54,634 nt of DNA from Candidatus Cloacimonadota bacterium (GTDB lineage: Bacteria; Cloacimonadota; Cloacimonadia; Cloacimonadales; TCS61). The stretch is from NCBI GenBank assembly GCA_021735645.1, contig JAIPGP010000013.1:1-54634 (forward strand), written 5' to 3'. Positions 35-49,690 of this stretch are shown one piece after another (within the stretch, counting starts at the first letter, position 1; every line of letters starts with the position of its first letter). Under the pieces are notes generated by a model. The model was not told where the DNA came from and did not search any database. It was given only the letters and a program-made list of their open reading frames with translations. The translations under genes and the position numbers were made by a program.

Positions 35-76
35 TATAGGGCTTATAGGAGTTATAGGACCTATAGGACTTATAAT
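35..76 (+). repeat. 9-bp-period array, TATAGG + variable triplet
   Basis: The hexamer TATAGG starts at 35, 44, 53 and 62, and a degenerate copy (TATAAT) starts at 71. The spacing is exactly 9 bp and the three bases between hexamers differ each time (gct, agt, acc, act). The same hexamer-plus-triplet design, in the opposite orientation, recurs at 49613-49645. The function is unknown. Confidence 0.85.
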
Positions 77-175
77 AGATATATAAAAAACGAGACAATA
101 GAATAATTATAAATTCCGCTTTGTGAAATAGAACAGAATCACTAAATGAAGTTTATAAGTGAATAAATTACCTAT

Positions 176-376
176 GAAGCCACAGGGAGGGTACAGTGGG
201 CAAGTATGAGACAAAACTGGTAGATAAAAGCAATGTATCATATACTTAAGCACAAAAAGGCATTATTGGGCTAAAAAACAGTATATTAACGATTGATTTA
301 GGCGCGAGACCATTCCAAAAGAGGAATAATATATGTAAACTGATTTATAACCTCTACGAGTTAGAGGTTTAAACTG
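176..376 (+). repeat. Dispersed intergenic element, copy A
   Basis: About 200 bp shared with 10591-10846 in the same orientation. Shared blocks include GAAGCCACAGGGAGGGTAC at the left edge, CATTCCAAAAGAGGAA in the middle, and ATATGTAAACTGAT followed by TATAACCTCTACGAG near the right edge. Copy A ends in a hairpin with AACCTCT (349-355) pairing with AGAGGTT (363-369). Both copies precede a gene for an exported protein on the same strand. It could be a non-autonomous mobile element or a shared 5' regulatory or RNA element. Confidence 0.75.
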
Positions 377-474
377 TCCAAACTCCAGAGGTTATTTAAG
401 ACCTTTCAGACCAATATCATCCCACACATATTCCGGCTCAAGCAACCAGCTATATAAGGGCTACTTAGTGGTAG

Positions 475-606
475 ATTTTAAGAGAAGAGGAAGTTGAGAC
501 AAAAAAGGTACGATTATGTACAGAGTGTGACGAATGTGGGCAATTGGACAAATATTCTTATAAATGTTGTCAGAAGACAGAACCAACAGTAAACAGAAAG
601 TACTAA
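475..606 (+). pseudogene. Zinc-ribbon-like reading-frame remnant
   Basis: A 43-codon open frame without ATG, GTG or TTG at its start (a TAG precedes it) reads like real protein. It has a charged run (EEEVETKK) and then cysteines spaced as in LCTECDECGQ and YKCC. This resembles a small metal-binding finger. It may be the 3' remnant of a decayed gene or a chance frame. No family can be named. Confidence 0.25.
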
Positions 607-757
607 TATGCAAGGAGTTACGTTGTAGCATAAACATTTAGGTTAATTTCACACTAAATGGAACCACTTTTGCTTATTGTATAGGTTGAAATAATTTAAC
701 TGAATAACATTAGTTATGTAAAGTTGATTAAAAAACTAAAAAACATGGGAGAAAAGA

Positions 758-3700
758 ATGAAGAAAATCGTAGTAATATTTTTGCTTTTTGCGGGAGTGC
801 TGCTATTTAGCAATTCAGCTTTTGAACAGGGATTGAAATCACAGTCAGAGAGTACCTCTGATATTTTTATGGAAACCGATCTGCGAACAGATGACCTCAT
901 GATCAATGAGATAAATTTTAACAGTCATGCTTCTATTGGACCAGAGGAAGAATTTGAATTTATAGAAGTACACAATCCCAGTGGAAGTGGCTTAGACCTG
1001 ACTGGACTTGCGATTGCTGGTTCAGTGGAATATGCTTTTGATGCAGGAACAATGATTCCCGGGTCAGGTTATATTGTAGTAGCCAGAGATCCAGAAGCAT
1101 TAATGGCAGCTTATGGGATTTATAATGTAGTGGGATCTTTTACGGGAGAACTGCCCAATGACAGTGGAACGGTTATTTTGCAGCAGGCTGATAATCAAGA
1201 GGTAATCGATCAAGTTGATTATGAAGGTGACTGGTATTATGATGCGGAAGACGGCTGGAGTTCACTGGAGCTGCGTAATCCTGGAATGGATAACAGCGAA
1301 ATGGAATCATGGTGTGCATCTTACGGCAGCGGCTGGGATGCGAATCTGGAGCATCTGGGTGGAACTCCCGGTGTGATAAATCTACATATTTACTCTATAT
1401 ATGACATTCAATGGGTTAATGGGGCTAATGGCTACACGTCAGAAAAAGAACATGAGATGGTGCAGTGTACTGGAATTATCACAGCAAAGTTCTTTGGAGA
1501 CAATGTGCAGCGTTATGTGATCCAGGTACCGGAATTTTTACTGAATGAATATCAATTTTCCGGAGTATTTGTTTATGCTAATGGCATGGAAGATTATGAA
1601 GAAGGCGACATTATTACAGTAACGGGTCTGGTAACAGAAGATGGTGGCGGATTTAGCGACACAGTGATCAATCCCTGGGAGATAACTTTGCAGTCAAGCG
1701 GTAATGAACTGCCGGAACCTGTAGAAGAAACAATCATGCATGTTGATGCCATGAATGAAAATTGGGAAGGAGTGTTGATCACCTGCGCTGGAACATGCAC
1801 CAATGGGAATGAAAACGGCACACCGTGGTTTTTATCAGATGGCTTATATAGCGCAACTATTGCCGGAGATGATGATGAGCATTATAGCGCTCCTGCTGGT
1901 ACAACTATAGAAGATAATGAATATACTGTACGCGGAATAATAGTGAGATATGAAATCTGGATGCGTTCTGAGCTTGATTATAATGACGGACTATATACCC
2001 TGCCGGGCATTCTGGCAGGAACAGTGCAAAGCCTAGTAACTGGAACAGGCATAGCCGGAGCAGAGGTAACTGCCCAGCTTCCTGAATATAGAGAAGTATA
2101 TACTGCCACGACAAATGAACTGGGTGAATATGAGATGGAGCTTCCCCTGGGACTCTATCATGTGAACTGCAGTGCTGTGGGTTATATTGATCCTGATTAT
2201 GAAATTGCAATAATAGAGGAAGAAGAAACAACCATTGTAGATTTTATCCTGGAAGAAGGCAATCATCCTCCGGTACTCAATCTGCCGGGAGTATTTGCTT
2301 TTAACGAAGACGAAACCCTCACCGTGGATATGAATGATTATGCCACAGATATTGATGGTGATGTGATGATCACGGGAATTGACGGCAATGTGGAAATCAA
2401 TGTGCAGGCAAACGGCATGGAGCTTTTCTTTAGTGCACCGGCAAACTGGAATGGAGAAGAGACAGTCACGCTGTGGGTGAATGATCAGCAGAATCGCGCC
2501 TTAGTGAGCGAACCAATTATCCTGGAAGTATATGCGATCAATGATGCGCCCTGGATTGATCTGCCAGAAGAGCTAACAATTAACACATATATAGATGATA
2601 TGCCTTATCTATTTGATATTGAGTCATATTACGGCGATATTGATGGTGACCTGTTAACTGGAGACGTGATGTTTGACATGGGCATAGAAGCTGTGCTTGA
2701 TGGAACAAACATCCAGATAATGGTCGATGAGGGATTTACCGGCACAGCTCAGCTTTGGGTAACCGTGTATGATGAAGAATTATCTGAAACAGATCAGATT
2801 ACCGTAAACGTGATTTCTTCTGCTGATGTAGGAGAACTTGTATTTGATATCACTGCTCTGGAAGCTGGACCTGCCTTTGGGGACTGGATGTTTGATAATG
2901 ATGCTTCACCTTTTTACCATAATCCCACAATTAATTCATATTATGCCTATAATGCTTTTAGCTGGAACGTGGATGGTAATGGAGATGGAACCTGCGGCAG
3001 CTTAGGCAGCGGTGTGGTCACAGAGCAGATATGCGTTGAGGAAAATCTGCCATTCGTTGCTTCAGTGAATGAACTGGAGCTTAATATTGATGATTTCACT
3101 CTTACATTCTTTGAACATATAAACACAGAAAATCCTGAACAGCCCTGGGACACCATGGGCGAAGCCGGAGACCACAGACAATATACAGAAGGCATCGGTA
3201 CAATATCACAAAACGGAAATGTTGTTCTAAGTGTAACGGGCATAATATTTGATATGATAGCCTATTATCCGGCACCTGTTGGTAATGGTGGCGGGACAGG
3301 TTATGGAACTGTTTCCGGCAGCGGAGTGATAGACGCCTATAATTCAGACCTGCAATGGGTAGAATACTTTGATGTAGATCAGACGGGGATGATATATTTC
3401 AGTTGTGATTCCATGTCACCAGTATTGCAGGATTGTTATGGCACTTATGATGTAGATAATCTGGTGGTATATGGCAGTGATTCTGGAAATCATGCTCCTG
3501 AACTTGAATTGATTGATGCTATGCTAATGCAGGAAGACATTTCGGCAGAGCTTGATATTGCGGAATACGCTTTTGATGAAGATGGAGATGAACTGACTGT
3601 GACCGTTGCCGGCAATGAGATGATCTCTGCGACAGTTGATGGCATGGTGGTTACTTTCACCCCTGCAGTGAACTGGTATGGTAGTGAGACAGTAACAATC

Positions 3701-6700
3701 AGTGTCAGTGACGGATTAGCATCTGCAAGCCATGAAGTTAATATATCAGTTTCTCCTGTTAATGATGCACCGTGGATAGACCTGCCGGATGAACTGACAA
3801 TAAACACAGCAGTAGAACCGATTCCCTATGCATTTGACATTTCAGAATTTTTTGGCGATGTGGATGATGATGAACTTGTCATTACAGTGAGCGGTTATAT
3901 ATATCTGACAGTGGAAGTAGATGATGATATATTATTGATAACTCCAGATCAGGGTTTCACCGATTATGACATGCTTATGGTAACAGTGACAGACCCAATG
4001 GATTTGAGTAATTCTGATACTATGACCATTGGAATAATTAATGAAGGTGGAACTCCGGAGCTGATATTTGATATTTCAGGTCTGGAAGCAGGGCCGATAA
4101 ATTTTGGAGTTGACTGGATGTTTGATCTGGATGATACACCTTTCATTGAAAATCAGGATATACATTCCAATTATGCCTATCAGGCATTTCACTGGAATAT
4201 AGACGGTCATGGGAACGGTTTTTGCGAAAGTGGTGGCAGCGGTGTGATCACAGAAGAAATTTGTGTTAGTGAAAGCGTGCCTTTTGCAGCCGATGTTTCA
4301 GAACTTGGTTTATTTATAAATAATTTTGCATTAACATTTTTTGAACACATAAATACTGAAAATCCTGATAATCCCTGGGATACTATGGGCGAAGCCGGAG
4401 ACCAGCGTCAATATATCGGTGGTATCGGAACAATCACTCATAATGGAAGTGTCGTGCTTTCTGTTACTGATATCCTTTATAATGTAACAACATATTATCC
4501 TGCACCTCTTGGCAATGGCGGAGCCAGCGGATATGGCACAGTAGAAGGTGAAGGATATATTGATGCAGCAAATTCTGATCCGCAGTGGGTTGACTTTTAT
4601 GACCAGAACGGATCAGGACTTATCTATTTTAGCTGTGGGTCAATGTCACCAGTACTTCAGATGTGTTATGGCACTTATGACGTAGATGACCTGATAATTT
4701 ACGGTAGTGAGCAGCAAAATCAAGCTCCAGTATTATATCTACCTAACGAGTTTACATTTGACGAAGATGATACGATGGTGATAAACGTTGATGATTATGC
4801 CATTGACCCAGATGGAGACCTGCTCACAGTTACTGTATTAGATAATGAGATGATCAATGCCCAGGTTATTGGCATGAACGTTATTCTTTCTGCTTCACCA
4901 AACTGGAATGGCAGTGAATTTATCACTATAATGGTTGACGATGGAGCTAATCGTGCAATAGCTTCTGATGATACAGAGATAATTGTGAATCCCATCAACG
5001 ATGCACCCTGGATAGAACTGCCAGATGAAATAACTATTGACCCCACTATCGATCCAATACCTTTCAGTTTTGATGTTTCAAACTATTGCGGAGATGTAGA
5101 TGGTGATGAGCTAACGATGACAGTGGTAAATTCTAATGAAGTAACAGTTACAATTGATGGATTAACGCTGATTATAAACCCCGTATATTATGATAGTCAG
5201 GCATTGATAACGATTACGGTTTCTGATCCACAATCACTGATTGACATTGATAATTTTAATGTTAATATTGGTAACTATATAACAGCAATTAGTGGTCAGG
5301 TATATGAAGAAGAAAGCCGCTCACCAATATCAGATGTAGAAATCACGCTTACTGATAATATTTATAGAGGTGTAAGTCGCCAAAATAGCAGCAGATTAAC
5401 ATATACTACCTATACCGATGAATATGGCACATATTATATAGAAGTAGATCCTGGCACATATAGCCTCATTGCTACTCATCCAGACTATGAAACAGTGACT
5501 GTAAACGATCTATTAATTGAAGAAAACACTACTTTGCAATATTTCTTCGGCATGACTCCTGCGGGTGCTGGTTACATTACCGGGGGACTTTACAGCGTTG
5601 GTTGCGAATATGGAGACGGAATAGTAAATTTAAATTTTGCTGATCTGGAGAACCTTGATTCCGGTTGCAGTCAGGATGATATTGGGTATGGTGATTTCAC
5701 GGATATGACAGCTACAGTATATGCCGGTCAGGAATTAGATGTATCTATCCAAAGTGGTTATAGCGGCAATTATGCCCGTATCTGGGTGGATTTTAACCAG
5801 GATTTCAGCTTTAGTGAAGATGAAATGATCATGGACACAGCTGAGATTAATAACTATAATACAACTGTAGTGCCTATAACAATTCCCATGGCAGCTGTTC
5901 CAGGTGAATACAGAATGAGAGTCAGAGCTGTGTATTTGCAGCAAATATTTGGTGCGGATGAACTGCAAACGTATGGTGAAGTGGAAGACTACACTATGAT
6001 AGTTACGGATGAAATAACCCCGGAGCTTACCCTTGAACTGCCTGTAGAAATTTATGCCATGATTGAAGATGACTCTGCTGAATTTGATTTGACTCCTTAT
6101 ATCACTGGTGAAAATTACACAATATCGGCTGAAGGAAGTGAGAATATCTCTGTTTCTTTAGATGGTCTTCTGGCTAATTTGACTCCAGCCGAAAATTTCT
6201 TTGGTTTGGACGAAGTTGTATTTACACTCAGCGATGAAATCAGCAGAACTACCGTCTCTGACACCTTGCTGGTGGAAGTGGCAGCAGTAAATGACGCCCC
6301 ATATATTGATCTGCCTACGCAGCTCTCTTTCTATACCTATGGACCCAAAGTGCGTGATATCTCAGATTACTTTGGTGATGTGGACGGTGATCTGCTTACT
6401 GTTTCCGTTACCGGCACAGATAGTATAGAGGTAGAAGTTCTGGGCTCAATCATCCACTTGATAATTGATGATGGCTGGACAGGAACAGATACCTGGACGA
6501 TCACAGTTGATGATGGAGTAAGTAGAGAATCAGCCTATGATATCGTTAATATCCAGGTAGGCGATGCTCTGATCCTCAATCTTGATAATGTCTTACCGGA
6601 AGAACAGGGTGGTTATGGCTGTATTGACTGGGAAGAAGATGGTGCCTATCTATCAATAATCCCGATTGCCGGAGAAGGCTGGCAATGTAATGGCGAAAAT

Positions 6701-8479
6701 GACCCATCCTGGTATTATTATCCCGGTGAAGTAACTATGTATCCGGGTCGCTTGTACGTTGACCTGAGTTATTTTGACCTGCACTGGTTCCAGGTGGAAG
6801 TTACCCTTACAGATTATTGTGATATCGGCTGCACTGAAGTAGTGGGAACCATGGGTCAAAATACATTTATTTCCAATAGCAACACTGTCTCTGGTGAAGA
6901 AACCCACGTTTCAATAGTTAACGGTATGGGCATGGACTTAGATGGCTTCTATATAAATACTCTGGAAGGCATAGTTCACGAAATCCATGTTTATTTTGCT
7001 AACCAGAATCCCACATATATAGGCGGACACATCACTGATGCACTCACAGAATTGCCTTTAGCTGCTGTAGAACTAACCGTTTCAGATATTTATGATTCCA
7101 CCATGGTTTATATTACCGGAACTGGAGCTGATGGTAATTATTATGTGGAAGTGGAACCATCTACTTATAATCTTGCCTTTGATTGTGCCGGCTATGAAAG
7201 CGTGTATTATGAAAACGTTACCTTAGCTGATGGTGATTTTGTGGATTACAGCTTTGCTATGACAGCCCAGATTACACCAGTCACAATCAGTAAATCATTT
7301 GTAGCCGGCTGGAACTGGTTATCCCTCAATGTTTATGCGGATGATATGGACATCAATACTGTGCTGTCATCAATTGGAGAACATGGGACTTCCATAAAAA
7401 ACCAAACCCAAAGTGCCCTTTATTATGAAAATATTGGCTGGCTCGGTTCCTTGCAGGAGTTTAATAACCTCACTTTCTATATAGTGCAGGCTGATGCTCC
7501 AGTGGAATTTGAGTTTTCTGGTTTGCCGGTAGATATTTATGAAACAAATTATGAACTGGTAACTGGTTGGAACTGGATATCTTACGCACCACAGCAATCT
7601 GAAGAAATCAATTATGCTCTGGCAGGTATTGCCAGCGGAATTAATATTAAAAATCAAACTCAAAGTGCGATTAATTATGATGACATGGGCTGGTTAGGAA
7701 GTCTTACTGACATGCAGCCCTTAAATGGATATATGCTCAAAATGGATAATGCTGAACAATTTAACTATCCAGAACCGCAGGGAGACATCCGGTCTCAGCT
7801 AACTGAACCTCAGTTTTCCTGTGTTGAAGCGGAATGGAGCGTCAATCCGCATGATTACGAATATAATGGCATAGTCATTACAGAAATAAATGCTGAGCAG
7901 CAGTTTACTGCTTCTGATTATGTCCTGGGAGTATTCTGCGAAGAAGAATGTCGCGGTATTGCTTCTGAAGAATCAGGCACTGTGCTGGATTACACGGAAC
8001 ATTTCGGTAAAACATACCATTCTTTGATGGTATATTCGAATAATGCTGAAGGAGAGACGCTAAGCTTCAAGCTGTATAACTTCCAGACTGGAGAAATTAC
8101 AGAACTGGATAACACCCTGAGCTTCCAGGCTGATATGGTAATTGGAAACTGGGATGAACCGCTGCCGATAACTGCTCCACAGACAGATGAAAGCGAAATT
8201 GCAGTATCTCAGCTTTTAAGTTGCTACCCCAATCCCTTTAATCCTTCCTGCTCGATATCATTTAATCTGAATAAGGAAGAGAATGTAGAAATTGCCATCT
8301 ATAATGTCCGCGGTCAAAAAATTGCCACTCTTATAAATGACAGACTGGTAAGCGGGCAGCATAGTATAGATTGGAAAGGAACAAATGAATCTGGTCACCC
8401 GGCAGCTTCGGGTATTTACTTCGTGAACATGAAAACTGCTGATTATCAGGAAATGAATAAAATCATCCTCCTGAAATAG
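758..8479 (+). CDS. Giant exported multidomain protein with sorting domain
   Basis: A 2573-residue secreted, probably surface-attached protein. Residues 1-21 form a signal peptide. Visible domains, roughly in order: a lamin-tail-like domain (about 45-150), an OB-fold-like region (about 215-330), a carboxypeptidase-regulatory-like domain (about 410-500), and many cadherin/Ig-like repeats marked by NDAPWIDLP. A ~200-residue module occurs twice (from about 690 and 1098, marker NTENPWDTMGEAGD with small changes). Then come a second regulatory-like domain (about 1508), a GEVED-type domain (about 1600-1750) and a third regulatory-like domain (about 2087). Two GWNW(L/I)S modules lie at about 2183 and 2267. 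The C-terminus (about 2486-2573) is an FlgD-like sorting domain beginning CYPNPFNPS, typical of type IX secretion substrates. The start is supported by GGGAG just upstream. A role in adhesion or extracellular polymer binding is inferred. Confidence 0.93.
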   Translation: MKKIVVIFLLFAGVLLFSNSAFEQGLKSQSESTSDIFMETDLRTDDLMINEINFNSHASIGPEEEFEFIEVHNPSGSGLDLTGLAIAGSVEYAFDAGTMIPGSGYIVVARDPEALMAAYGIYNVVGSFTGELPNDSGTVILQQADNQEVIDQVDYEGDWYYDAEDGWSSLELRNPGMDNSEMESWCASYGSGWDANLEHLGGTPGVINLHIYSIYDIQWVNGANGYTSEKEHEMVQCTGIITAKFFGDNVQRYVIQVPEFLLNEYQFSGVFVYANGMEDYEEGDIITVTGLVTEDGGGFSDTVINPWEITLQSSGNELPEPVEETIMHVDAMNENWEGVLITCAGTCTNGNENGTPWFLSDGLYSATIAGDDDEHYSAPAGTTIEDNEYTVRGIIVRYEIWMRSELDYNDGLYTLPGILAGTVQSLVTGTGIAGAEVTAQLPEYREVYTATTNELGEYEMELPLGLYHVNCSAVGYIDPDYEIAIIEEEETTIVDFILEEGNHPPVLNLPGVFAFNEDETLTVDMNDYATDIDGDVMITGIDGNVEINVQANGMELFFSAPANWNGEETVTLWVNDQQNRALVSEPIILEVYAINDAPWIDLPEELTINTYIDDMPYLFDIESYYGDIDGDLLTGDVMFDMGIEAVLDGTNIQIMVDEGFTGTAQLWVTVYDEELSETDQITVNVISSADVGELVFDITALEAGPAFGDWMFDNDASPFYHNPTINSYYAYNAFSWNVDGNGDGTCGSLGSGVVTEQICVEENLPFVASVNELELNIDDFTLTFFEHINTENPEQPWDTMGEAGDHRQYTEGIGTISQNGNVVLSVTGIIFDMIAYYPAPVGNGGGTGYGTVSGSGVIDAYNSDLQWVEYFDVDQTGMIYFSCDSMSPVLQDCYGTYDVDNLVVYGSDSGNHAPELELIDAMLMQEDISAELDIAEYAFDEDGDELTVTVAGNEMISATVDGMVVTFTPAVNWYGSETVTISVSDGLASASHEVNISVSPVNDAPWIDLPDELTINTAVEPIPYAFDISEFFGDVDDDELVITVSGYIYLTVEVDDDILLITPDQGFTDYDMLMVTVTDPMDLSNSDTMTIGIINEGGTPELIFDISGLEAGPINFGVDWMFDLDDTPFIENQDIHSNYAYQAFHWNIDGHGNGFCESGGSGVITEEICVSESVPFAADVSELGLFINNFALTFFEHINTENPDNPWDTMGEAGDQRQYIGGIGTITHNGSVVLSVTDILYNVTTYYPAPLGNGGASGYGTVEGEGYIDAANSDPQWVDFYDQNGSGLIYFSCGSMSPVLQMCYGTYDVDDLIIYGSEQQNQAPVLYLPNEFTFDEDDTMVINVDDYAIDPDGDLLTVTVLDNEMINAQVIGMNVILSASPNWNGSEFITIMVDDGANRAIASDDTEIIVNPINDAPWIELPDEITIDPTIDPIPFSFDVSNYCGDVDGDELTMTVVNSNEVTVTIDGLTLIINPVYYDSQALITITVSDPQSLIDIDNFNVNIGNYITAISGQVYEEESRSPISDVEITLTDNIYRGVSRQNSSRLTYTTYTDEYGTYYIEVDPGTYSLIATHPDYETVTVNDLLIEENTTLQYFFGMTPAGAGYITGGLYSVGCEYGDGIVNLNFADLENLDSGCSQDDIGYGDFTDMTATVYAGQELDVSIQSGYSGNYARIWVDFNQDFSFSEDEMIMDTAEINNYNTTVVPITIPMAAVPGEYRMRVRAVYLQQIFGADELQTYGEVEDYTMIVTDEITPELTLELPVEIYAMIEDDSAEFDLTPYITGENYTISAEGSENISVSLDGLLANLTPAENFFGLDEVVFTLSDEISRTTVSDTLLVEVAAVNDAPYIDLPTQLSFYTYGPKVRDISDYFGDVDGDLLTVSVTGTDSIEVEVLGSIIHLIIDDGWTGTDTWTITVDDGVSRESAYDIVNIQVGDALILNLDNVLPEEQGGYGCIDWEEDGAYLSIIPIAGEGWQCNGENDPSWYYYPGEVTMYPGRLYVDLSYFDLHWFQVEVTLTDYCDIGCTEVVGTMGQNTFISNSNTVSGEETHVSIVNGMGMDLDGFYINTLEGIVHEIHVYFANQNPTYIGGHITDALTELPLAAVELTVSDIYDSTMVYITGTGADGNYYVEVEPSTYNLAFDCAGYESVYYENVTLADGDFVDYSFAMTAQITPVTISKSFVAGWNWLSLNVYADDMDINTVLSSIGEHGTSIKNQTQSALYYENIGWLGSLQEFNNLTFYIVQADAPVEFEFSGLPVDIYETNYELVTGWNWISYAPQQSEEINYALAGIASGINIKNQTQSAINYDDMGWLGSLTDMQPLNGYMLKMDNAEQFNYPEPQGDIRSQLTEPQFSCVEAEWSVNPHDYEYNGIVITEINAEQQFTASDYVLGVFCEEECRGIASEESGTVLDYTEHFGKTYHSLMVYSNNAEGETLSFKLYNFQTGEITELDNTLSFQADMVIGNWDEPLPITAPQTDESEIAVSQLLSCYPNPFNPSCSISFNLNKEENVEIAIYNVRGQKIATLINDRLVSGQHSIDWKGTNESGHPAASGIYFVNMKTADYQEMNKIILLK

Positions 8480-8491
8480 TATTATTGTTAC

Positions 8492-10423: not shown

Positions 10424-10456
10424 GTTAACAGTGTAAACGCAGTTAACCATGTCAAC
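10424..10456. repeat. 9-bp-period array, GTNAAC + variable triplet
   Basis: GTTAAC (10424), GTAAAC (10433), GTTAAC (10442) and GTCAAC (10451) are spaced exactly 9 bp apart. The spacer triplets all differ. It belongs to the same family as the arrays at 11782, 34189, 35002, 35711, 40842 and 49647. Confidence 0.85.
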
Positions 10457-11781: not shown

Positions 11782-11814
11782 GTGAACGAAGTTAACGCAG
11801 TGAACACAGTGAAC
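11782..11814. repeat. 9-bp-period array, GTKAAC + variable triplet
   Basis: GTGAAC (11782), GTTAAC (11791), GTGAAC (11800) and GTGAAC (11809) are exactly 9 bp apart, with triplets gaa, gca, aca and gag. The array lies between the converging lipoprotein and beta-helix genes. Confidence 0.85.
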
Positions 11815-11827: not shown

Positions 11828-14671
11828 TTATTTGATCAGCATGATCTTTTTACTTACAATGCCATTACTGCTCTTCAATCTGAGCAGATAAACTCCTGAA
11901 CTTACTTTCCTACCGGTTGTATTTCTTCCATCCCAGATCAGGGTGTTATTGCCTGAGGGGAGGATTTCATTAGTAAGAATTTTAACAAGCTGCCCCTTTA
12001 GATTATACACTGAGATATTTACCTGTTCAGCCTCTGGTAGATTAAAGGTTATTTGTGTTTCTGGATTGAAAGGATTTGGGTATATAGAAATTAATTTGTC
12101 CAATTCTGTGATATTATCTTCCGGCAGATATTCCAGGTCATAAGAATTTCCATTATCCTCTATCTGAAAGTGAATATTCCACGCTTCCGGATTTTCCGCC
12201 TGATAGGGTATCCTGACAATATTACCTGCGATCCCGGCAGCACTGATCAAAGCAAACTTATTATCATTATAGTTATAAAGACAATCATCATTTATTACTT
12301 CCTGCAAATCCACAGTCAGATTTTCCGCACTGGTGAGTTCATATTCGAGGCTGAAAATGGGGTTCAGGCTGTTAAGATAGATATATTCTGCATCATGCGA
12401 GATTGTGATCTCTCCTGGGGGGAGCCGCATAGCATTGACTACCGGCAATTGGCTGATTAGCCCTACAATATACTGCAATATATGAGCCGCATCAATGGCG
12501 CCTATATCACCGCTGAGATTTACGTCAGCTTTTTCCACACGCCAGTCTGACCAGGGACGAGGGTCAAGCTCAGGCAGCGGATCAAGTCCCACTACGTACA
12601 TAAGGACCAGGGAAGCATCCAGGCTTTCAACTAATTCATTATCATCAATATCGCCATATAGCAGCATTAAACCATATTCAAAAGCGCCCATATCAGGAGC
12701 AATTCCAGAATATTCATATTGACTTAGATCCACTAAGACTTCACCATCATACTCAAAATAACTGGTACCCGTATCAATACAGGGTGAATACTCTGTCAGA
12801 TGATAATCTCCTACTAAAACATCCATAAAAAAAGGATCAATATCAATATTACCTTCTAACCAGTTAGCTGTTCCATTTTCGTTGGTTTCTATTCCTTCTT
12901 CTCCTCCTGAAATATCAGAATAGGCAATTGTTACTGAACTTAAGTAAGAATAAGCCGATAATACAATGTCCTGGGGTAAATTATTCCAGACAATACTGTT
13001 CACTACAATCGGATTGGAAGTATAGCAATAAATCCCACCGCCATCAATATCAGCTACATTATCCGTAATCGTTACATTCTCAATAATTGGACTGGATTGA
13101 TTGCAGTAAATCCCACCGCCAAAAAATTCAGCCGAGTTACCCGAAATCGTTACATTCACTAAATTCGTAGAACTGGAATTCTCATAGAAAATCCCTCCAC
13201 CACCAAATCCAGCGGAATTGTTCCCGATCATCACATTCTCAAAACTCGGGTTGGAATGAAAGCAGTAAATCCCACCACCATTGGTCTCAACTGAATTATC
13301 CATGATCGAAACATTTAATAAATTCGGACTGCAAAAATTATAGTAAATCCCACCGCCATCCTCAGCAGCAGAATTATTCGTAATCATCACATTCTCTAAA
13401 CTTAAACTGCCTTGATTACAGTAAATCCCTCCGCCTTTAACCTCAGCAGAATTATCCGTAATTGTAATATCCTCTAAACTCGGGCTGGAATCTATACAGT
13501 AAAATCCACCGCCAAAACGAGCCGAATTATTTGTTATCGTCCCATTCACAAAACTCAGTTGGGCAGTCTCTTCGCAACAAATACCACCACCATTATAGTG
13601 AGCGATATTATCTATAAATGTAACATTCACTAAATCCAGATTAGAATAATTGCAGCAGTAAATCCCACCACCAAAGCCATGAAAAGTATAATAAGCTGAA
13701 TTCCCCGTAAATGTTACATTTATTAAAGTAGCGATAGAATTATCGAAATGAATCCCAGCACCTCTTTCCTCTACCGAATTACCGGCAAATGTAACTCCTT
13801 CTAAATCTGCACTGGAAGAAGAGAAGCAGATTCCACCACCCCTATCCTCTACCGAATTACCTGTAAATTGCACATTCTCAAAACTCATAGAGGATTCATT
13901 ACAGAAAATTCCTCCACCACTACTATATCCTCCTGTATTATCAGTAATTGTCACATTCTCAAAACTTGCACTGGAAGACTCACAGCAAATACCTCCGCCA
14001 TTATATCCAGACGTATTATCGGTTATCGTCACATTCGCAAAACTCAGAGCGGAATCATCAAAGTAAACCCCACCACCATACCAGGCGAAATTATCTATAA
14101 TTGCCACATTCTCAAAACTCGGACTGGAAGATTGGCAGAAAATCCCACCGCCACACGAAAGAGCGTAATTATCAATAATTGTGACATTCTCTAAACTCGG
14201 GCTGGAAGAATTGCAGCAATATATGCCACCACCATAACCATCATTGAAATCAGAAGTCGAATTACTCGTGATCATCAGATTCACTAAACCCGGACTGGCA
14301 TCATCGCAGTAAATTCCACCACCATCTTCATCACCAAGTCCATTAGTAATCGTAAATCCTATTAATACAGAAGCAGAATTTTCTCCGCTGGCAAATGTGA
14401 TTACTGAGCCATTTTGATTACCATCAATGATCGTTTGCTCAATATAGCTGCTATCCTGAGTTGTGTAAAACAGGGACCCCAGAATTATCGCTTTCCCGGC
14501 AAAATTGATATTCTCAAGGTAAGTGCCGGGAGATACAATAATCTCATCTCCATCTTCAGAGGCAGATATTCCCTCCTGAATAGTTGTGTAATCCTCCGGG
14601 ATGTATATTGTTGTCGCAAAAGCACCTGTCAGCAAAATTATAAAAAATATAAATATAGCCTGCTTTTTCAT
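11828..14671 (-). CDS. Exported parallel beta-helix protein with dockerin and sorting domain
   Basis: About 947 residues from the preferred start MKKQAIF at 14671, which has GGAG five bases upstream. An in-frame ATG also exists at 14689. After the signal peptide comes a DUF1565-like start (TIYIPEDYTTIQEGI). About 17 beta-helix turns of the form GGGIYC...SFENVTITDNSA follow, as in polymorphic outer-membrane proteins. Residues about 672-745 form a dockerin-like pair of calcium loops (GDIDDNELVESLDASLVLM and DVNLSGDIGAIDAAHIL). The C-terminus from about 862 is a type IX sorting domain with IYPNPFNPETQ. It is likely surface-exposed and involved in binding polymers or partner proteins. The 3' end converges on the lipoprotein gene. 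Confidence 0.92.
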   Translation of the reverse strand: MKKQAIFIFFIILLTGAFATTIYIPEDYTTIQEGISASEDGDEIIVSPGTYLENINFAGKAIILGSLFYTTQDSSYIEQTIIDGNQNGSVITFASGENSASVLIGFTITNGLGDEDGGGIYCDDASPGLVNLMITSNSTSDFNDGYGGGIYCCNSSSPSLENVTIIDNYALSCGGGIFCQSSSPSFENVAIIDNFAWYGGGVYFDDSALSFANVTITDNTSGYNGGGICCESSSASFENVTITDNTGGYSSGGGIFCNESSMSFENVQFTGNSVEDRGGGICFSSSSADLEGVTFAGNSVEERGAGIHFDNSIATLINVTFTGNSAYYTFHGFGGGIYCCNYSNLDLVNVTFIDNIAHYNGGGICCEETAQLSFVNGTITNNSARFGGGFYCIDSSPSLEDITITDNSAEVKGGGIYCNQGSLSLENVMITNNSAAEDGGGIYYNFCSPNLLNVSIMDNSVETNGGGIYCFHSNPSFENVMIGNNSAGFGGGGIFYENSSSTNLVNVTISGNSAEFFGGGIYCNQSSPIIENVTITDNVADIDGGGIYCYTSNPIVVNSIVWNNLPQDIVLSAYSYLSSVTIAYSDISGGEEGIETNENGTANWLEGNIDIDPFFMDVLVGDYHLTEYSPCIDTGTSYFEYDGEVLVDLSQYEYSGIAPDMGAFEYGLMLLYGDIDDNELVESLDASLVLMYVVGLDPLPELDPRPWSDWRVEKADVNLSGDIGAIDAAHILQYIVGLISQLPVVNAMRLPPGEITISHDAEYIYLNSLNPIFSLEYELTSAENLTVDLQEVINDDCLYNYNDNKFALISAAGIAGNIVRIPYQAENPEAWNIHFQIEDNGNSYDLEYLPEDNITELDKLISIYPNPFNPETQITFNLPEAEQVNISVYNLKGQLVKILTNEILPSGNNTLIWDGRNTTGRKVSSGVYLLRLKSSNGIVSKKIMLIK

Positions 14672-14790
14672 TATTACTCCCATATTCATTGATCTAATAT
14701 ATTAAATCTTGTTGTAATAGTGTTATAGTTTGTCAACTATTTTAGTGAAATTTCGCGTGCCCCTCCTCCGAAATAAAAATAATTTCTGTA

Positions 14791-24256: not shown

Positions 24257-25187
24257 CCAAAAAAAGGCTTATATCTATGGCTTGATTGCAATATTTTTCT
24301 GGTCAACGGTAGCTTCCGCCTTTAAAATTGCTCTGCAATATAATTCTCCGCCTGCCATGCTGCTGCTTGCCAGCTTTTTTTCTCTGCTGGTTCTGATAAT
24401 TATAGCTGCCAGCCAAAACAAGATTTCTCTGCTCTGGCAATCTTCTCCGCATCTGCTCCGGCAAGCCTCGCTACTTGGCGTCCTGAACCCATTTCTTTAC
24501 TATCTTATCCTGCTGCAAGCCTATAATTTGCTGCCAGCTCAAATAGCCCAACCTTTAAATTATACCTGGGCTATTATGGTTGCTCTGCTATCTATCTTTA
24601 TCCAGAAACAGAAGCTGCGTTATTTTGATATCGTTGCCCTGCTGCTGTGTTATAGCGGAGCTGCGGTTATTTCCAGTGGAGGAGGTAAACTTGGTGAGAT
24701 CAATCATACAGGGGTTTTTCTGGCTTTATTTTCCTCAATTGTCTGGGCATTTTACTGGATTTATAATGCTGGTATACGCCTTGATCCACTCATAAAACTG
24801 ATTGCTAATTTCTTCTGCGGAAGCCTGCTGATATTGGGCTATTGTCTAATAACTGGGGATCTGCCGATATTCAGTGTTAAGAGTATTTTGTCTGCACTAT
24901 ATCTGGGTATTTTTGAGATGGGTCTCACATTTGTGTTCTGGCTAAAAGCAATGGAGCTAACAGAAAAGACGGTTAGAATATCAAACTTGATCTTCTTATC
25001 TCCATTTCTATCATTTATATTTATCACACTCACACTAAAAGAGCCCATTGCCTGGACATCTATCGCCGGACTAATATTCATCACAAGCGGAATATTATTT
25101 CAGCACAGCAAAGCCGGAAAATTAAAAAAATTAGAGCAAAATCAGTTTTCTAACTCCTCGTCTTCTTCATCGTCAACGTCATCGTAA
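24249..25187 (+). CDS. EamA/DMT-family transporter
   Basis: About 312 residues with ten hydrophobic helices in two EamA repeats, the usual drug/metabolite transporter layout. The start is GTG 24249 or TTG 24246, both overlapping the sirtuin stop, with AAAGG just upstream. The tail is a low-complexity serine run (NSSSSSSSTSS). It is encoded by the complement of the acidic tail of the converging gene, overlapping it by 46 bases. The substrate is unknown; relatives export amino acids or other metabolites. Confidence 0.85.
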   Translation: MSNQKKAYIYGLIAIFFWSTVASAFKIALQYNSPPAMLLLASFFSLLVLIIIAASQNKISLLWQSSPHLLRQASLLGVLNPFLYYLILLQAYNLLPAQIAQPLNYTWAIMVALLSIFIQKQKLRYFDIVALLLCYSGAAVISSGGGKLGEINHTGVFLALFSSIVWAFYWIYNAGIRLDPLIKLIANFFCGSLLILGYCLITGDLPIFSVKSILSALYLGIFEMGLTFVFWLKAMELTEKTVRISNLIFLSPFLSFIFITLTLKEPIAWTSIAGLIFITSGILFQHSKAGKLKKLEQNQFSNSSSSSSSTSS

Positions 25188-34188: not shown

Positions 34189-34230
34189 GTTAACCAGGTA
34201 AACGCAGTAAACTCTGTGAACATGGTAAAC
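34189..34230. repeat. 9-bp-period array, GTNAAC + variable triplet
   Basis: GTTAAC (34189), GTAAAC (34198), GTAAAC (34207), GTGAAC (34216) and GTAAAC (34225) are exactly 9 bp apart, with triplets cag, gca, tct and atg. At five units it is one of the longest intact arrays in the window. Confidence 0.88.
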
Positions 34231-35001: not shown

Positions 35002-35034
35002 GTAAACATTGTTAACCCGGTTAACCTAGTTAAC
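35002..35034. repeat. 9-bp-period array, GTTAAC + variable triplet
   Basis: GTAAAC (35002), GTTAAC (35011), GTTAAC (35020) and GTTAAC (35029) are exactly 9 bp apart. Its last unit supplies the final TAA stop (35030-35032, minus strand) of the interrupted four-helix-bundle gene. Because GTTAAC contains TAA on both strands, such arrays also act as stop signals for any frame that meets them in register. Confidence 0.88.
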
Positions 35035-35626
35035 GATCTGTTTGATCTTTCAGTTTATCTTTTCCCTGATTATTCTTTCTTGCTTCTTGCCACACTCGAT
35101 GTAATCTTTCAGTTAATCCGCCTTGCGATTCAAAATCTTCTGCAAGCCTTTCTACATGGGTATTCAATAGAGCTCGGGCTACAATAATCAGAACTAGGGC
35201 AGCGTTGGCAGAATATTCCGGATAATTAGCTTAATTAAGGCAATTTTCTTTTATCCAGTTTGCAACTTCATCTGCTGTCCGGCATCTAACATCGATTAAC
35301 TGTTGCCGGAGTGGGTTATTTCTCTCCCATAGAGTTAATTTTCTTTGACGCAGGAAATCTTCATAATCAAGTTTTAGTTCTTCCAGACTGGAGCGTGCTA
35401 CCTGGATAAGTTTTAATTCGGTTTTCTTTGAGGTTGCTGCAGCTTGCGAGACTTCGGCAATGTTTTGCACTCCGCTTCTGGCTGCCTGTACTATTTGATC
35501 CTTTGTCCTACTGAATTTATCTATATACCAATCACAAAATCTTACCGTCACATCATAAACCAGTTGCGCCATCTGAAAACTCATCATCTTGCGACAGCCC
35601 CCATGGTTTCCCAGCAGCTTTGACAT
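35030..35626 (-). pseudogene. Four-helix-bundle protein interrupted by an in-frame TAA
   Basis: The first 131 residues (MSKLLGNHGGCRKMMSFQMA... to WIKENCLN) match the S23/avd-like four-helix-bundle family in its version with a C-terminal extension. The stop TAA at 35233-35231 is followed in the same frame by 66 more codons (ANYPEYSANAALVLIIVARA... GGLTERLHRVWQEARK). These correspond to that extension, including the typical GGxTERLxR. The intact protein would have about 198 residues. It is most simply a nonsense mutation or base-call error. Related proteins occur inside rRNA intervening sequences or with diversity-generating elements, but no such context is visible here. Confidence 0.8.
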
Positions 35627-35710: not shown

Positions 35711-35767
35711 GTTAACACTTTTCCCGTTAACTATGTTAACTCGGTTAACCAGGTTAACAATGTCCAC
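35711..35767. repeat. 9-bp-period array, GTTAAC + variable triplet
   Basis: GTTAAC at 35726, 35735, 35744 and 35753 and GTCCAC at 35762 are exactly 9 bp apart. A further GTTAAC at 35711 is 15 bp before the first. It lies between the interrupted four-helix-bundle gene and the end of yedF. Confidence 0.88.
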
Positions 35768-40841: not shown

Positions 40842-40883
40842 GTAGACGTAGTGGACTAAGTGGACGCAGAGGACGTAGTGGAA
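40842..40883. repeat. 9-bp-period array, GTGGAC-like + variable triplet
   Basis: GTAGAC (40842), GTGGAC (40851), GTGGAC (40860), GAGGAC (40869) and GTGGAA (40878) are exactly 9 bp apart. One more GTGGAC at 40835 is out of register by 2. It lies in the spacer after upp. Confidence 0.82.
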
Positions 40884-43566: not shown

Positions 43567-43579
43567 CCAGGAAAATAAA

Positions 43580-46817: not shown

Positions 46818-46892
46818 TTCAAAGCCCTCCGGATATATTCAGTGAGTTATTAAATACATTTCAGCAAACTATAGTCAAGAAATTTTAAATTT

Positions 46893-46961: not shown

Positions 46962-46975
46962 TTCAAATATAATCC

Positions 46976-47013
46976 CCTCATACGGCTTCGCCTTCGGAAG
47001 CCTTTATGAGAGG
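46976..47013. repeat. Second hairpin of the cluster
   Basis: CCTCATA followed by GGCTTC pairs with GAAGCC followed by TATGAG/AGG, with small bulges and a 6-base loop. It lies between the long inverted repeat and the third hairpin. Confidence 0.6.
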
Positions 47014-47042
47014 CTAAAAAGATATTATGCCTTCAGCATATT

Positions 47043-47074
47043 GCATCCCCCCCTTTTTTTTCAGGGGGGATGCC
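47043..47074. repeat. Hairpin at the host-prophage junction
   Basis: GCATCCCCCC (47043 onward) pairs with GGGGGGATGC (ending 47074) around a T-rich loop. It repeats the ATCCCCCC arm of the inverted repeat at 46893. The truncated portal frame stops inside this hairpin, so it lies on or beside the junction. Confidence 0.7.
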
Positions 47075-48029
47075 AGCTTAACTGCGAAAATCTTTGACAA
47101 TTGTGATATGCCAATACCTCATTCCTGATGTCCTCTTTCAGCTTCTGATATTCTCCGTCCTTCATGTTGCCCCGCATCGGAACCAGTTCGATTTTTGCAC
47201 CAGTCTCTTCTATCTCCAAAAAAATTGAGGAGTGTCCGCTCTTTGTCCCCGTGGCATTCTTCAGCATCTTCTCAAGCTTTGTATATCCGTCCCCGTCCTC
47301 ATCCTCAAGCTCGTCTACTGTTCCGCCCGTAAGAAATATGAAATAGTCTATCAATAGCCCGTTTTTGAAGTTGTTATGATCAAGTGTCTTGATCTCTTTC
47401 AAGGTCTCCAGCCCATAAGCCACCGGCAGGCTGCTCAGCCCCCAAACCTTGCTTTTATAGGTCGGCTTTTTAATGTGTATCATATCTCTATTCAATATTG
47501 GTAATAGTTTATTGTTATGTCTTTGTACGTAATTCGGCTTCATGAAGCCGTTCTCGTCTATGTTTTCTCGTATCTCAATTTCATGCGGAAGCATTAGTTC
47601 TATTCCCACCCACTTACCGGTTCTGTCTCGCAGTTTCATCAAAAAAGCATTGCCGCATGCCTGGTAATAATTCACTGCCGTACGCAGTGACCTGGTTAAA
47701 TTCATCGGATTCTGACTGTTGGCTATCCAGTCTTTCACGCACTTTTCTGTATTCTTAAAGTGCATAATTGTTCCGTCTGATATTGCCCCGCATGCCCCGC
47801 TGTGGTAGCCGTCCACGTCCAGTAATCCCAGCATTTTCCTTATACTCACCACCGGCGCTATCGCTTTCTGCTTCATCACTTTTGCCAAAGCGCCAGTGTC
47901 ATCTTTCTGCAAAATTGACCGTATTATTCTGTCTCTGCTGGTAGCTTCACTGGTATAACCATAAGTCTTCATCGTATCTTCCAGGCTCACGTAACCATAT
48001 CGCTTTCCTCCAAATTGGAAAACTCTCAT
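47061..48029 (-). pseudogene. Phage portal protein, 3'-truncated
   Basis: 322 residues. It resembles HK97-type portals: SLRTAVNYYQACGNAFLMKLRD, MLPHEIEIRENID and DMIHIKKPTYKSKVWGLSSL. It reads normally to NEVLAYHN, the point where portals usually continue with a PPRL-like motif. It then runs through an unrelated tail (CQRFSQLSWHPP) into the hairpin at 47043-47074. About a quarter of a normal portal is therefore missing. The ring through which DNA enters the capsid would not form. The break at about 47,095 marks the left edge of the phage DNA. Confidence 0.8.
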
Positions 48030-48455
48030 TTATACCCCCAGCCTGCTCTTGCAACGCACGTCAACCCGTCCGCAGATCAAGTCTCTGCCCCCGTCGCCGT
48101 CCATCGGATATATCTCGATCTTATCTGTATGTATCCGCTTACCCTTCAAACTCATGCTCAGGCTGCTCGCCTTTTCCCAGACGGAACCCCGCAGGTCGTC
48201 ACTGCTCTCACCCTTGATCCAGATGTCTCCCTGGTTGCCGTAATCGGTTATATCCTCTACCAAATATAAACTGAATAAAAGATCTCCGATCATCTGTCTG
48301 CTCTCTGTCTCCTTGCTGTTCTCATAGCCCTTAAATTCATAAGCTCCACACGGATAACTTGCCGGAATCACTTTAATGTTCAGATACACCGCCCCTCCGC
48401 AAATTCCTTCCAGTTCACTCAATAGCTCATTCTTGTAATATCCCAGTGTGTTCAT
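48030..48455 (-). CDS. Phage neck or tail-terminator-like protein
   Basis: 141 residues, directly upstream of the portal gene. It overlaps the previous gene by four bases (ATGA). The pattern (QMIGDLLFSLYLVEDITD, later GRDLICGRVDVRCK) and its place after an HK97-gp10-like gene suggest a tail-terminator or minor tail role. No specific family is certain. Confidence 0.5.
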   Translation of the reverse strand: MNTLGYYKNELLSELEGICGGAVYLNIKVIPASYPCGAYEFKGYENSKETESRQMIGDLLFSLYLVEDITDYGNQGDIWIKGESSDDLRGSVWEKASSLSMSLKGKRIHTDKIEIYPMDGDGGRDLICGRVDVRCKSRLGV

Positions 48456-48901
48456 TTTACCTCCCGCAATTGACTTAATATCCAGTCTTCTCTCTTATCT
48501 ATCAGCTCCTGCACGATGTTTCTCGCCTCTATGCCCTTCTCTTTATGTTTCCGAACAATCAAAAATATCATCTGCTTAGTGCTCATCTCTTTATTGCCCC
48601 GATACCAGACTATCCCCTTGTCCTTTATCCATTGCTCTAATGGCTCAAATGGCGTTCCGCTCGGCTCCTTGCCCCCCAGCACATATTCGGCATGATCCAC
48701 GTTGCTGCCTAACCGCAGAACAAAACCCTCCCCGGTCTCAACCAGTTCGTAACTCATGTTGTTGATGAAATCACCCTTTGCACGTATCTTCCGGTCACTC
48801 GCCATCTTGATCAGTTGACCCCGCAATACCAGCCCGATCTTATCCAAACGCTGCCGATATTTGCTCACTATCTCCCTGGCTAATGCCTCAAATTCATTCA
48901 T
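48452..48901 (-). CDS. HK97 gp10-like phage neck protein
   Basis: 149 residues with features of the gp10 (head-tail closure) group: an N-terminal helix with EALAREIVSKYRQRLDKI, then NNMSYELVETGEGFVLRLGSNVDHAEYV, which includes the conserved VxYAxxxEFG-like turn. It overlaps the next gene by four bases. This assignment rests on pattern and position. Confidence 0.55.
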   Translation of the reverse strand: MNEFEALAREIVSKYRQRLDKIGLVLRGQLIKMASDRKIRAKGDFINNMSYELVETGEGFVLRLGSNVDHAEYVLGGKEPSGTPFEPLEQWIKDKGIVWYRGNKEMSTKQMIFLIVRKHKEKGIEARNIVQELIDKREDWILSQLREVK

Positions 48902-48913
48902 ATCTTATTCCTC

Positions 48914-48941
48914 GACTCACTACTCACTACTCACTACTCAC
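48914..48941. repeat. 7-bp tandem repeat, TACTCAC
   Basis: One GACTCAC and three TACTCAC units in perfect tandem, between two prophage genes. It shares the ACTCAC core with 52691-52753. Confidence 0.85.
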
Positions 48942-48949
48942 GGCGAAGC

Positions 48950-49417
48950 TCACTCATCCACCGGTGCGGTTATCATGCTCACCCCCAAACCATGTCTTCC
49001 CTGCAAACGCTTCAATTCCTGCTTACCATATTCATTAAGATATGCCTTCAATGTCTCCAGGCTCTGCTGACGTAACGATTTCCGGTAGCTGTTCACGTCT
49101 GTGATCTTCAAAAGCTCTGTCGCATTGTCTTCTATCCCGGTTTTCTGAACGAAGCCCTTGCCTATCGTATGCAGGTTCATCACGCTCATCATTAGGTTAT
49201 AGGTATATAATCCAAAGCCTATCTCGCCTAATGTTTGCTTAGCTGCATCTATAACTGCCTCTCCCGTTAGATCTGCCAGATATTCATCCGTCACATATTC
49301 TCCAGCCTGTACAATTGCTGCCTGGTGCATACTCACCCATAAAGCATTAACCTTCATCTGCTGCGGAAGATTGCACACTTCCAATATCTTCTCCACACTC
49401 ATCGGTAATACCGGCAT
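48950..49417 (-). CDS. Prophage protein, unknown, probably structural
   Basis: 155 residues from MPVLPMSVEKIL (ATG 49417, AAGGAGA four bases upstream). The protein is largely helical (HQAAIVQAGEYVTDEYLADL, LKAYLNEYGKQELKRLQGRHG). It opens the minus-strand run that leads to the portal, so a head-tail connection role is likely. The family is not recognised. Confidence 0.6.
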   Translation of the reverse strand: MPVLPMSVEKILEVCNLPQQMKVNALWVSMHQAAIVQAGEYVTDEYLADLTGEAVIDAAKQTLGEIGFGLYTYNLMMSVMNLHTIGKGFVQKTGIEDNATELLKITDVNSYRKSLRQQSLETLKAYLNEYGKQELKRLQGRHGLGVSMITAPVDE

Positions 49418-49431
49418 ATTGTCTCCTTTCA

Positions 49432-49473
49432 ACTAACCACTAACCACTAACTTCTCACGACTAACGACTAACT
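49432..49473. repeat. 7-bp repeat, ACTAACN
   Basis: Units ACTAACC, ACTAACC, ACTAACT, TCTCACG, ACTAACG and ACTAACT follow each other every 7 bp. It lies just upstream of the prophage gene at 49417. Confidence 0.8.
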
Positions 49474-49574
49474 AATAGTACTAAAAATACCCTTGTCAAG
49501 GGACGCCTGTCATCTTATGTCACTCTATGGCACACTTTTTTCTGAATTATTACTTAAATGGTATTTTTTCCCAC

Positions 49575-49602
49575 AAAAAAAAGCCTGGCATTTCGCCAGG
49601 CT
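49575..49602 (-). terminator. Rho-independent terminator of the repressor operon
   Basis: On the minus strand AGCCTGG and CCAGGCT pair around a 7-base loop and are followed by nine T's. It ends the transcript of the repressor and the membrane protein at 49695. Confidence 0.9.
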
Positions 49603-49612
49603 GTATTTTCAC

Positions 49613-49690
49613 CCTATATCTCCTATAGGTCGTATATGTCCTATTTGTTCACTAAGCGTTCACCAGGTTCACTCAGTTTACTGCGTTTAT
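49613..49690. repeat. Double 9-bp-period array (TATAGG type and GTGAAC type)
   Basis: Read on the plus strand, CCTATA starts at 49613 and 49622, CGTATA at 49631 and CCTATT at 49640, every 9 bp (complement of TATAGG). Then GTTCAC at 49658 and 49667, GTTTAC at 49676 and GTTTAT at 49685, again every 9 bp (complement of GTGAAC/GTAAAC). One GTTCAC at 49647 is out of register. Both array families therefore meet in one spacer inside the prophage. Confidence 0.85.

Follow-up and report, generated by a model that had tools for sequence, protein, structure and literature searches.

The closest described counterpart to what is reported here is the system of REP sequences and REPINs with their RAYT transposases, for which two reports describe a gene lying inside repeats of its own family, repeats in single and inverted double form, and a repeat load tied to gene presence (PMC3116915, PMC2817692). 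Two further points of reference are the IVP/S23 proteins of 23S rRNA intervening sequences (PF05635, TIGR02436) and Avd of the diversity-generating retroelements, which PF05635 resembles according to a third report that also cites the five-bundle structure of Xcc0516 (PMC10053308). We analysed a stretch of 54,634 nucleotides from a Candidatus Cloacimonadota genome (contig JAIPGP010000013.1; this whole stretch is the window below), whose spacers carry arrays of a hexamer plus a triplet repeated every 9 bp, and which holds, between two of these arrays, a gene for a four-helix-bundle-suffix (FHBS) protein, that is, one with a first domain of TIGR02436 and a suffix domain of TIGR04258. The association of arrays and FHBS genes is, in our judgement, almost certainly real, and it suggests an undescribed repeat-and-partner-gene system in which FHBS genes lie beside arrays in bacteria of several phyla; no description of these arrays or of their link to the gene was found in the open-licence literature, subscription journals and supplements being outside that search.

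The resemblance to the REPs and REPINs is threefold: the arrays too are dispersed and intergenic and occur both singly and as two-armed inverted, hairpin-capable elements; the FHBS gene is flanked by repeats of its own family, a layout seen in the sequence of nine loci, where units on one side are sometimes degenerate, and by coordinates for 12 of the 20 TIGR04258 genes of the phylum, each with an array of a queried family no more than about 650 bp away; and array presence tracks the gene, with exceptions such as genomes G124 and G139. The differences are that no Y1/HUH domain was found in FHBS, a four-helix-bundle protein, and that the repeat here is a phased 9-bp array with a loose triplet whereas REPs are single palindromes, and for these reasons we do not count the system as a REPIN-RAYT member. 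With the 23S rRNA intervening sequences it shares the N-terminal TIGR02436 domain and a structural model nearest to chains 2gsc and 2rld; however, the window gene lies outside rRNA (Rfam has no match within the window and the neighbours are protein genes), FHBS has the TIGR04258 suffix and surrounding 9-bp arrays, and the window protein stays below the PF05635 gathering score. The likeness to diversity-generating retroelements runs through the description of PF05635 as Avd-like, but a neighbour scan confined to the window locus recognised neither a nuclease nor a reverse transcriptase, no template or variable repeats were seen (no search was aimed at them), and the array triplets are not hypermutated. 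Ordinary bacterial minisatellites likewise consist of tandem 9-bp units and show whole-unit differences, but the FHBS arrays are set apart by recurrent hexamers, a conserved core and linkage to a gene family.

An earlier note on this DNA had listed nine arrays at 9-bp spacing, and all nine were read directly in the window; they are given here together with the two parts of the FHBS gene.

35 to 76, plus strand: TATAGG array, four clean units and one degenerate unit.
10424 to 10456, unstranded: GTNAAC array, four units.
11782 to 11814, unstranded: GTNAAC array, four units, between the ends of two convergent open reading frames (ORFs).
34189 to 34230, unstranded: GTNAAC array, five units, not found at the corresponding site of the sister genome G001.
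35002 to 35034, unstranded: GTNAAC array, four units, on the 3' side of the four-helix-bundle gene; the G001 ortholog has four units.
35075 to 35221, minus strand: TIGR04258 suffix domain (four helix bundle), sharing the frame of the part upstream and lying behind a stop codon.
35231 to 35626, minus strand: four-helix-bundle gene (TIGR02436; weak PF05635, 23S rRNA IVP), broken off by a stop codon ahead of the suffix domain.
35726 to 35767, unstranded: GTNAAC array, five units, the last GTCCAC, on the 5' side of the four-helix-bundle gene; three units in G001.
40842 to 40883, plus strand: GTGGAC array, five units (GTAGAC/GTGGAC/GTGGAC/GAGGAC/GTGGAA), preceded by a GTGGAC at 7-bp spacing.
49613 to 49645, minus strand: imperfect TATAGG array, reading CCTATA on the plus strand.
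49658 to 49690, minus strand: GTNAAC-type array, plus-strand units GTTCAC/GTTCAC/GTTTAC/GTTTAT.

The stop codon separates the in-frame TIGR04258 part from what lies upstream, so that the window copy is interrupted. It scores 30 bits against TIGR02436 (cut-off 24), 52.2 bits against TIGR04258 (cut-off 40) and 27.1 against PF05635 (threshold 33.8), the Pfam scan having been run on the window protein only; five further FHBS genes also score above the curated cut-offs of the two TIGR models. The gene is flanked by the arrays at 35002 and 35726, and its neighbours are FMN reductase and YedF. In the genome of the window (G000; 3.77 Mb, 151 contigs, 95% complete) there are four TIGR04258 genes, each adjoining a different hexamer family: GTTAAC on contig C125, ATGGAC on C61, TATAGG on C89 and GTGGAC on C3. 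The last pairing had been predicted beforehand, and GTGGAC arrays, with GAGGAC variants, were then found at C3:35204-35236 and 35288-35329, about 40 bp from the TIGR04258 domain at 35368-35514.

A profile built from the window gene and run over 256 loci returned nine homologs, all nine at 9-bp arrays; eight of these loci had been chosen because of their arrays, and the ninth (L379) comes from an even sample of the complete Oligosphaera ethanolica genome. Within the genus, GTTAAC stands at the window copy and at its G001 ortholog L264 (a fragment), ATGGAC at L286, TATAGG at L293, and GTGGAC at L261 (G001) and L269 (G002); outside it, GTGGAC stands at L097 (Sedimentisphaerales) and L132 (Desulfobacteraceae), and GGAC/GTCC 9-mers at L379. 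A second profile scan added L319, which had been fetched for its array, L403 and L404, and at L132 and L319 an array separates the two domains within the called gene. As a measure of scale, in 750 kb of G000, a sample chosen in part for its arrays, 17.7% of the sequence is no more than 1 kb from an array.

The link between gene and array extends to whole genomes. TIGR04258 occurs in 11 of the 124 genomes of the phylum, with 20 genes in total, and a four-unit GTNNAC or GTCCAT match was found in 8 of the 11 genomes with the gene against 3 of the 113 without it (Fisher P = 2e-8, or 2e-7 leaving out the genome of the window; the GTNNAC search covered 117 genomes and the GTCCAT search 124). GTCCAT-N3 arrays, which had been expected to be common in public metagenome-assembled genomes, are present in 10 of the 124. 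The three array-bearing genomes without TIGR04258 are G029 and G043, with one match each, and G105, which is 59% complete, and all three carry plain TIGR02436 only. Among 22 genomes reached through their arrays, 21 were searchable, of which 19 have four-unit GTGGAC matches and 18 have TIGR04258; one of them, G131, has neither the GTGGAC match nor TIGR04258 nor TIGR02436. In the class of G128, 148 genomes were sampled; the gene is carried by 94, in 93 of which it passes the cut-off, and four-unit GTGGAC matches occur in 20, five of them with a single match, and all 20 fall among the 94 gene carriers (P = 5e-5); leaving out five genomes that had been reached through arrays gives 15 of 15 (P = 5e-4). 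Gene and array are neighbours within about 550 bp at at least six loci of this class (G157 C36, G195 C218, G210 C14, G201 C352 and C346, G155 C111). One of these genomes, G195, holds 14 TIGR04258 matches in 5.8 Mb. A protein search of plasmid records, which did not start from arrays, gave one match, in Prevotella nigrescens, annotated as a four helix bundle suffix domain-containing protein, with a 9-bp CCTAG-N4 array about 45 bp after its stop codon; the CCTAG unit (three units, at most one mismatch) occurs at four places in this 568-kb record and nowhere in the reversed control. Among the Lentisphaeria, chlamydial, Hydrogenedentota and Desulfobacteria genomes searched, many have tens to hundreds of array matches each.

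The reversed controls gave some matches of their own, possibly further hexamer families: four-unit CANNTG-N3 has eight matches in G107 and three in G113, of the same class, and four-unit CAGGTG-N3 has one to four matches in each of G128, G154, G166, G180, G188 and G199, five of which carry TIGR04258, G154 being the one without.

The arrays themselves exceed what chance supplies. At period 9 with a six-base core the window holds 10 clusters (the nine arrays and a coding TCN repeat at 25170), against none in each of three simulated sequences and at most three at any other period; three-unit GTNNAC gives 14 matches against 0 in 100 shuffles, and TATAGG with up to three mismatches gives 10 against a shuffled mean of 0.09, which bears out the expected excess over shuffled sequence. 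The genome-wide pattern scan that had been proposed gave the same result, with 41 overlapping four-unit GTNNAC matches (31 arrays by manual count) against 0 in the reversed control, and 130 forward and 106 reverse three-unit TATAGG matches with up to two mismatches against 2 and 4 in the control. In a de novo scan of the 750-kb sample, in which ORFs were defined by length only (at least 80 aa), four 9-bp families emerged (GTNAAC, GTGGAC/GTCCAC, ATGGAC/GTCCAT and TATAGG/CCTATA), together with 7-bp arrays: 85 arrays at period 9, 38 at period 7 and at most 20 at any other. The single family of the earlier note thus resolves into three in the window (GTNAAC, GTGGAC and TATAGG) and four in the genome. 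Its placement of the arrays in spacers stands, since 31 of 35 GTNNAC arrays of at least three units lie outside ORFs, as do 6 of 8 ATGGAC, 6 of 10 GTCCAT, 24 of 27 TATAGG and 21 of 24 CCTATA arrays; three order-3 Markov simulations produced no array of at least three units.

The hexamer had been described as fixed within an array and the triplet as different each time. The arrays at 40842, 49613 and 49658 carry variants or imperfect units. Freedom of the triplet depends on the family: in the 750-kb sample identical within-array triplet pairs number only 3 of 101 in GTNAAC (shuffled mean 5.4), where the claim is nearly true, 7 of 27 in GTGGAC (5.7) and 12 of 90 in ATRGAC (6.1), but 181 of 281 in TATARG (57.7, with many arrays counted on both strands), whose middle triplet base is C in 97%. 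Since these shares differ so between families, the pattern of a fixed six and a free three suits GTNAAC; it fits ATGGAC and GTGGAC less well and TATAGG not at all, the last looking like an ordinary copied repeat. Even in GTNAAC the triplets are uneven (GCA 13 and ATT 12 of 87).

The 7-bp arrays (for example L282:13723, L298:1013, L303:14861 and L288:207) are in some cases built of related hexamers with one loose base, such as GTTCAC or ATTCAC plus N, and the GTGGAC arrays at window position 40842 and in L298 begin with a 7-bp step. At L300:11540-11860 a 129-bp tandem duplication holds GTCCAC and GTNAAC arrays, and the copies are told apart by a single triplet base of the GTNAAC array and a single GTCCAC unit.

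Comparison with the genus mates G001 and G002, whose longer blastn matches to G000 are about 72-81% identical and of which part of each genome was covered, indicates what is kept. Three orthologous arrays could be aligned, namely 35002 with G001 (4 against 4 units), 35726 with G001 (5 against 3) and L286:9005 with G002 (5 against 4), the fourth shared array being left out and one alignment needing a manually placed 9-bp gap; in these three arrays the GT..AC core is changed at 1 of 44 sites and the rest at 13 of 46 (Fisher P = 0.0008), the latter divided between the two middle bases (6 of 22) and the triplets (7 of 24). Because the core changed far less than the other sites, the suggested selection on the hexamer gains support. 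A diversifying mechanism, the alternative that had been offered, does not, as 17 of the 24 triplet sites show no change and differences between arrays also concern whole units or the presence of the array; the unit numbers, which the note had asked to have compared between relatives, show such whole-unit differences. For 13 array loci of G000 the matching spacer was located in a sister genome, and by manual count four of these spacers bear an array of like kind (35002, 35726, L286:9014 and L293:10153), whereas arrays are absent from the corresponding place in G001 at L279:1619, L286:5553, L306:10055 and window position 34189. One spacer that bears GTNAAC in G000 and G002 has unrelated hairpin-like sequence, judged by eye, in G001. 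In direction the result is clear, if from a small sample: the core is held, the spacer bases drift, and units or whole arrays come and go. As a separate observation, the spacer at L307:17177 (orthologs in L272 and L262) varies between the three genomes: in G000 it holds an ATGGAC array and in G002 one of the CCTATA type, and in G001 it has neither and shows, by eye, a terminator-like hairpin.

The arrays have a polarity. The 10 bases after the pyrimidine-type arm are A-rich: the share of A is 0.46 in 62 GTNNAC arrays and 0.51 in 18 GTCCAT arrays, compared with 0.28 and 0.31 on the side before the arm. In two-armed elements, with GGAC- and GTCC-type arms at most 120 bp apart, the purine arm lies 5' of the pyrimidine arm in 23 of 23, drawn from five of the six genome groups examined; Oligosphaera has no such pair. 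Triplets in opposite arms pair at 27 of 90 positions, with 0 of 30 fully complementary, in G000, G001 and G002, no better than chance, and likewise at chance level, at 13 of 57 with 0 of 19, in G130, G143 and G140, but at 46 of 66 positions, with 12 of 22 fully complementary, in the chlamydial G126; the hexamers match across the arms even where the triplets do not. An RNA hairpin formed by base pairing was rejected on the chance pairing in the first two groups, G126 notwithstanding. Promoter or activator sites were also rejected: some arrays stand, by eye, just before TTGACA-like boxes, but the genes downstream of GTNNAC arrays are 22 aligned and 21 opposed. Terminators were rejected as well, no T-run following the arms of the two-armed elements inspected by eye.

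Six FHBS proteins searched against NCBIfam matched TIGR02436, TIGR04258 and weak hypothetical-protein or topoisomerase I models, and no transposase family or recognised catalytic domain. An AlphaFold2 model made from three sequences has a mean predicted local distance difference test (pLDDT) score of 81, and its nearest Protein Data Bank (PDB) chains by Foldseek are 2gsc (Xcc0516) and 2rld (S23 family), both of the S23/IVP type and both deposited as hypothetical or of unknown function. Among eleven sequences, some partial and together too few for a tree, the proteins linked to GTNNAC- or ATGGAC-type arrays are 52-72% mutually identical (91% for the G001/G002 pair), and for those linked to TATAGG, CCTAG, TCGGAC or Oligosphaera 9-mers identity with the rest is 30-52%. 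At the end of the L379 protein stands a cysteine motif, read here as a zinc ribbon, the protein's topoisomerase I match lying far below the cut-off (E 0.0035).

We lean, if only slightly, towards the reading of a single-gene system whose dispersed partner sites are the arrays, each hexamer family being paired with an FHBS gene copy seated inside arrays of that family. The FHBS protein probably binds the arrays; it would recognise the hexamer at 9-bp phasing and leave the triplet mostly uncontacted, and on this proposal such binding would be the reason why the core is kept and the triplet drifts. The phased protein-binding sites that had been suggested would fit the arrays. With less confidence, the protein may also spread the arrays in trans, solitary and two-armed arrays then being non-autonomous copies, which would relate to it as REPs and REPINs do to RAYT transposases; on whether FHBS disperses the arrays we come down marginally on the doubtful side. 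More tentative still is the wider claim that a new class of dispersed bacterial repeats owes its existence to FHBS proteins: an oligomeric protein of IVP fold would read the hexamer arrays by their 9-bp phasing and copy or relocate them with no known transposase, each gene copy having its own hexamer specificity, across several phyla. What sequence offers on transposition is the presence or absence of arrays at orthologous spacers, with no clean insertion boundary. If the pairing holds, it would account for the tens to hundreds of matches per genome in many of the groups searched, and hexamer-matched repeats beside the TIGR04258 branch would give S23/IVP-type proteins a concrete nucleic-acid target.

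A number of observations weigh against this reading. Neither G000 nor G001 has an unbroken GTTAAC-linked gene. Under a strict two-sided test (at least three exact units within 350 bp on both sides) only 2 of 6 FHBS copies of the genus pass, the failing ones having degenerate units on one side, arrays overlapping the called ORF, or being fragments (adjacency judged by eye); the background in G000, G001 and G002 is 10 of 981 ORFs, which include the window gene and L261, and a similar test in Oligosphaera passes 4 of 304 ORFs, among them the L379 gene. For eight of the 20 TIGR04258 genes of the phylum (three in G015, two in G056, one in G093, one in G083 and the one at G002:C249) no array of a queried family is listed on the contig, other hexamers being outside the scope. 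Conversely, G105 has 24 four-unit GTCCAT matches and no TIGR04258; the metagenome-assembled genomes G124 and G139 have 96 and 93 four-unit GTGGAC matches and neither TIGR04258 nor TIGR02436; and G001 and G002 hold GTCCAT arrays with no identified ATGGAC-type gene, G002:C249 being outside what was read. Hexamer and protein likeness do not run in parallel, as two ATGGAC-linked proteins (G000 and G067) are 52% identical and the G067 one is 70% identical to a GTGGAC-linked protein. None of 120 viral array loci has an FHBS match, and the gene of the single viral homolog, L403, adjoins a weak, imperfect TCGGAC repeat, with a clear 9-bp array lying some 1.9 kb off. The Foldseek probability of 1.00 for the best match of each chain comes with weak E-values (0.03 for 2gsc, 0.3 for 2rld), and a profile search of PDB sequences gave no match. 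Finally, arrays show no preference relative to gene direction, and at the orthologous spacers no clean empty site with boundaries was seen.

The strongest rival, if an unlikely one, is binding without mobility: FHBS would be a resident DNA- or RNA-binding protein, with a role in the nucleoid, in silencing or at transcript ends, and the arrays would arise by slippage and local copying with nothing moved. The conserved core, the indifference to gene direction and the A-rich side after the pyrimidine arm all agree with it, and the spacer with a GTNAAC array in G000 and G002 but hairpin-like sequence in G001 would suit a tolerated or useful element. The high turnover between sister species, the several hexamers per genome and the seat of the gene within arrays of its own family, however, look more like a repeat family with a source gene. 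Less probable again is that another machine (an HUH transposase, a reverse transcriptase or replication itself) spreads the arrays and that the FHBS gene is a passenger. Such an account would suit the want of a recognised catalytic domain in the six scanned proteins, and there is a precedent in the DRT10 reverse transcriptase, which, according to PMC12632851, makes tandem-repeat cDNA with a 9-nt period; but in G000 the hexamer differs from gene copy to gene copy, the neighbours at the window locus, the only one so inspected, are FMN reductase and YedF, and DRT10 repeats copy one template whereas GTNAAC triplets vary from unit to unit. DRT10-type synthesis was set aside.

That the arrays are ordinary minisatellites, 9-bp units multiplied by slippage whose triplets simply mutate, is already disfavoured and highly improbable, for although the identical TATAGG triplets, the whole-unit differences between species and the perfect 9-mer repeats of many array-bearing genomes are what it would lead one to expect, period 9 stands out from other periods (85 against 38 at period 7 in G000), the same few hexamers turn up at loci otherwise unrelated, conservation of the core extends across species and the arrays track a gene family. 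The same two sides appear elsewhere: in the even Oligosphaera sample period 9 has 50 arrays against at most 12 at other periods, yet the units are mostly copied, with a variable remainder in only 4 of 50 arrays (by our own cut) and 33 of 50 overlapping called ORFs, and in array-bearing public genome contigs many arrays, among the matches listed, are perfect, ordinary repeats. Within G000, the share of whole-copy units that tests for an ordinary minisatellite is high in TATAGG and very low in GTNAAC.

That the arrays lie in both host and prophage-like spacers, as the earlier note held, is plausible, those at 49613 and 49658 being near a portal-like gene and a CI-type repressor gene. The region 47061-52772 has phage-like genes for a partial portal protein, a CI-type repressor and an excisionase-like protein. 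Among viral contigs arrays were found in many, among the matches listed, triplet freedom being outside that analysis. Spread by phages was set aside as an explanation, one viral scan having given arrays in many contigs and the other a single FHBS homolog.

Two further features of the window may be recorded. The TATAGG array at 35-76 is identical to one at the corresponding offset (35-76) of contig C137 (L301), probably as a repeat at assembly contig ends. The segments 758-8479, 11828-14689 and 15188-19549 encode large proteins with Por_Secre_tail or FlgD-type sorting domains, one of them with a C25 peptidase and one with Chlam_PMP repeats.

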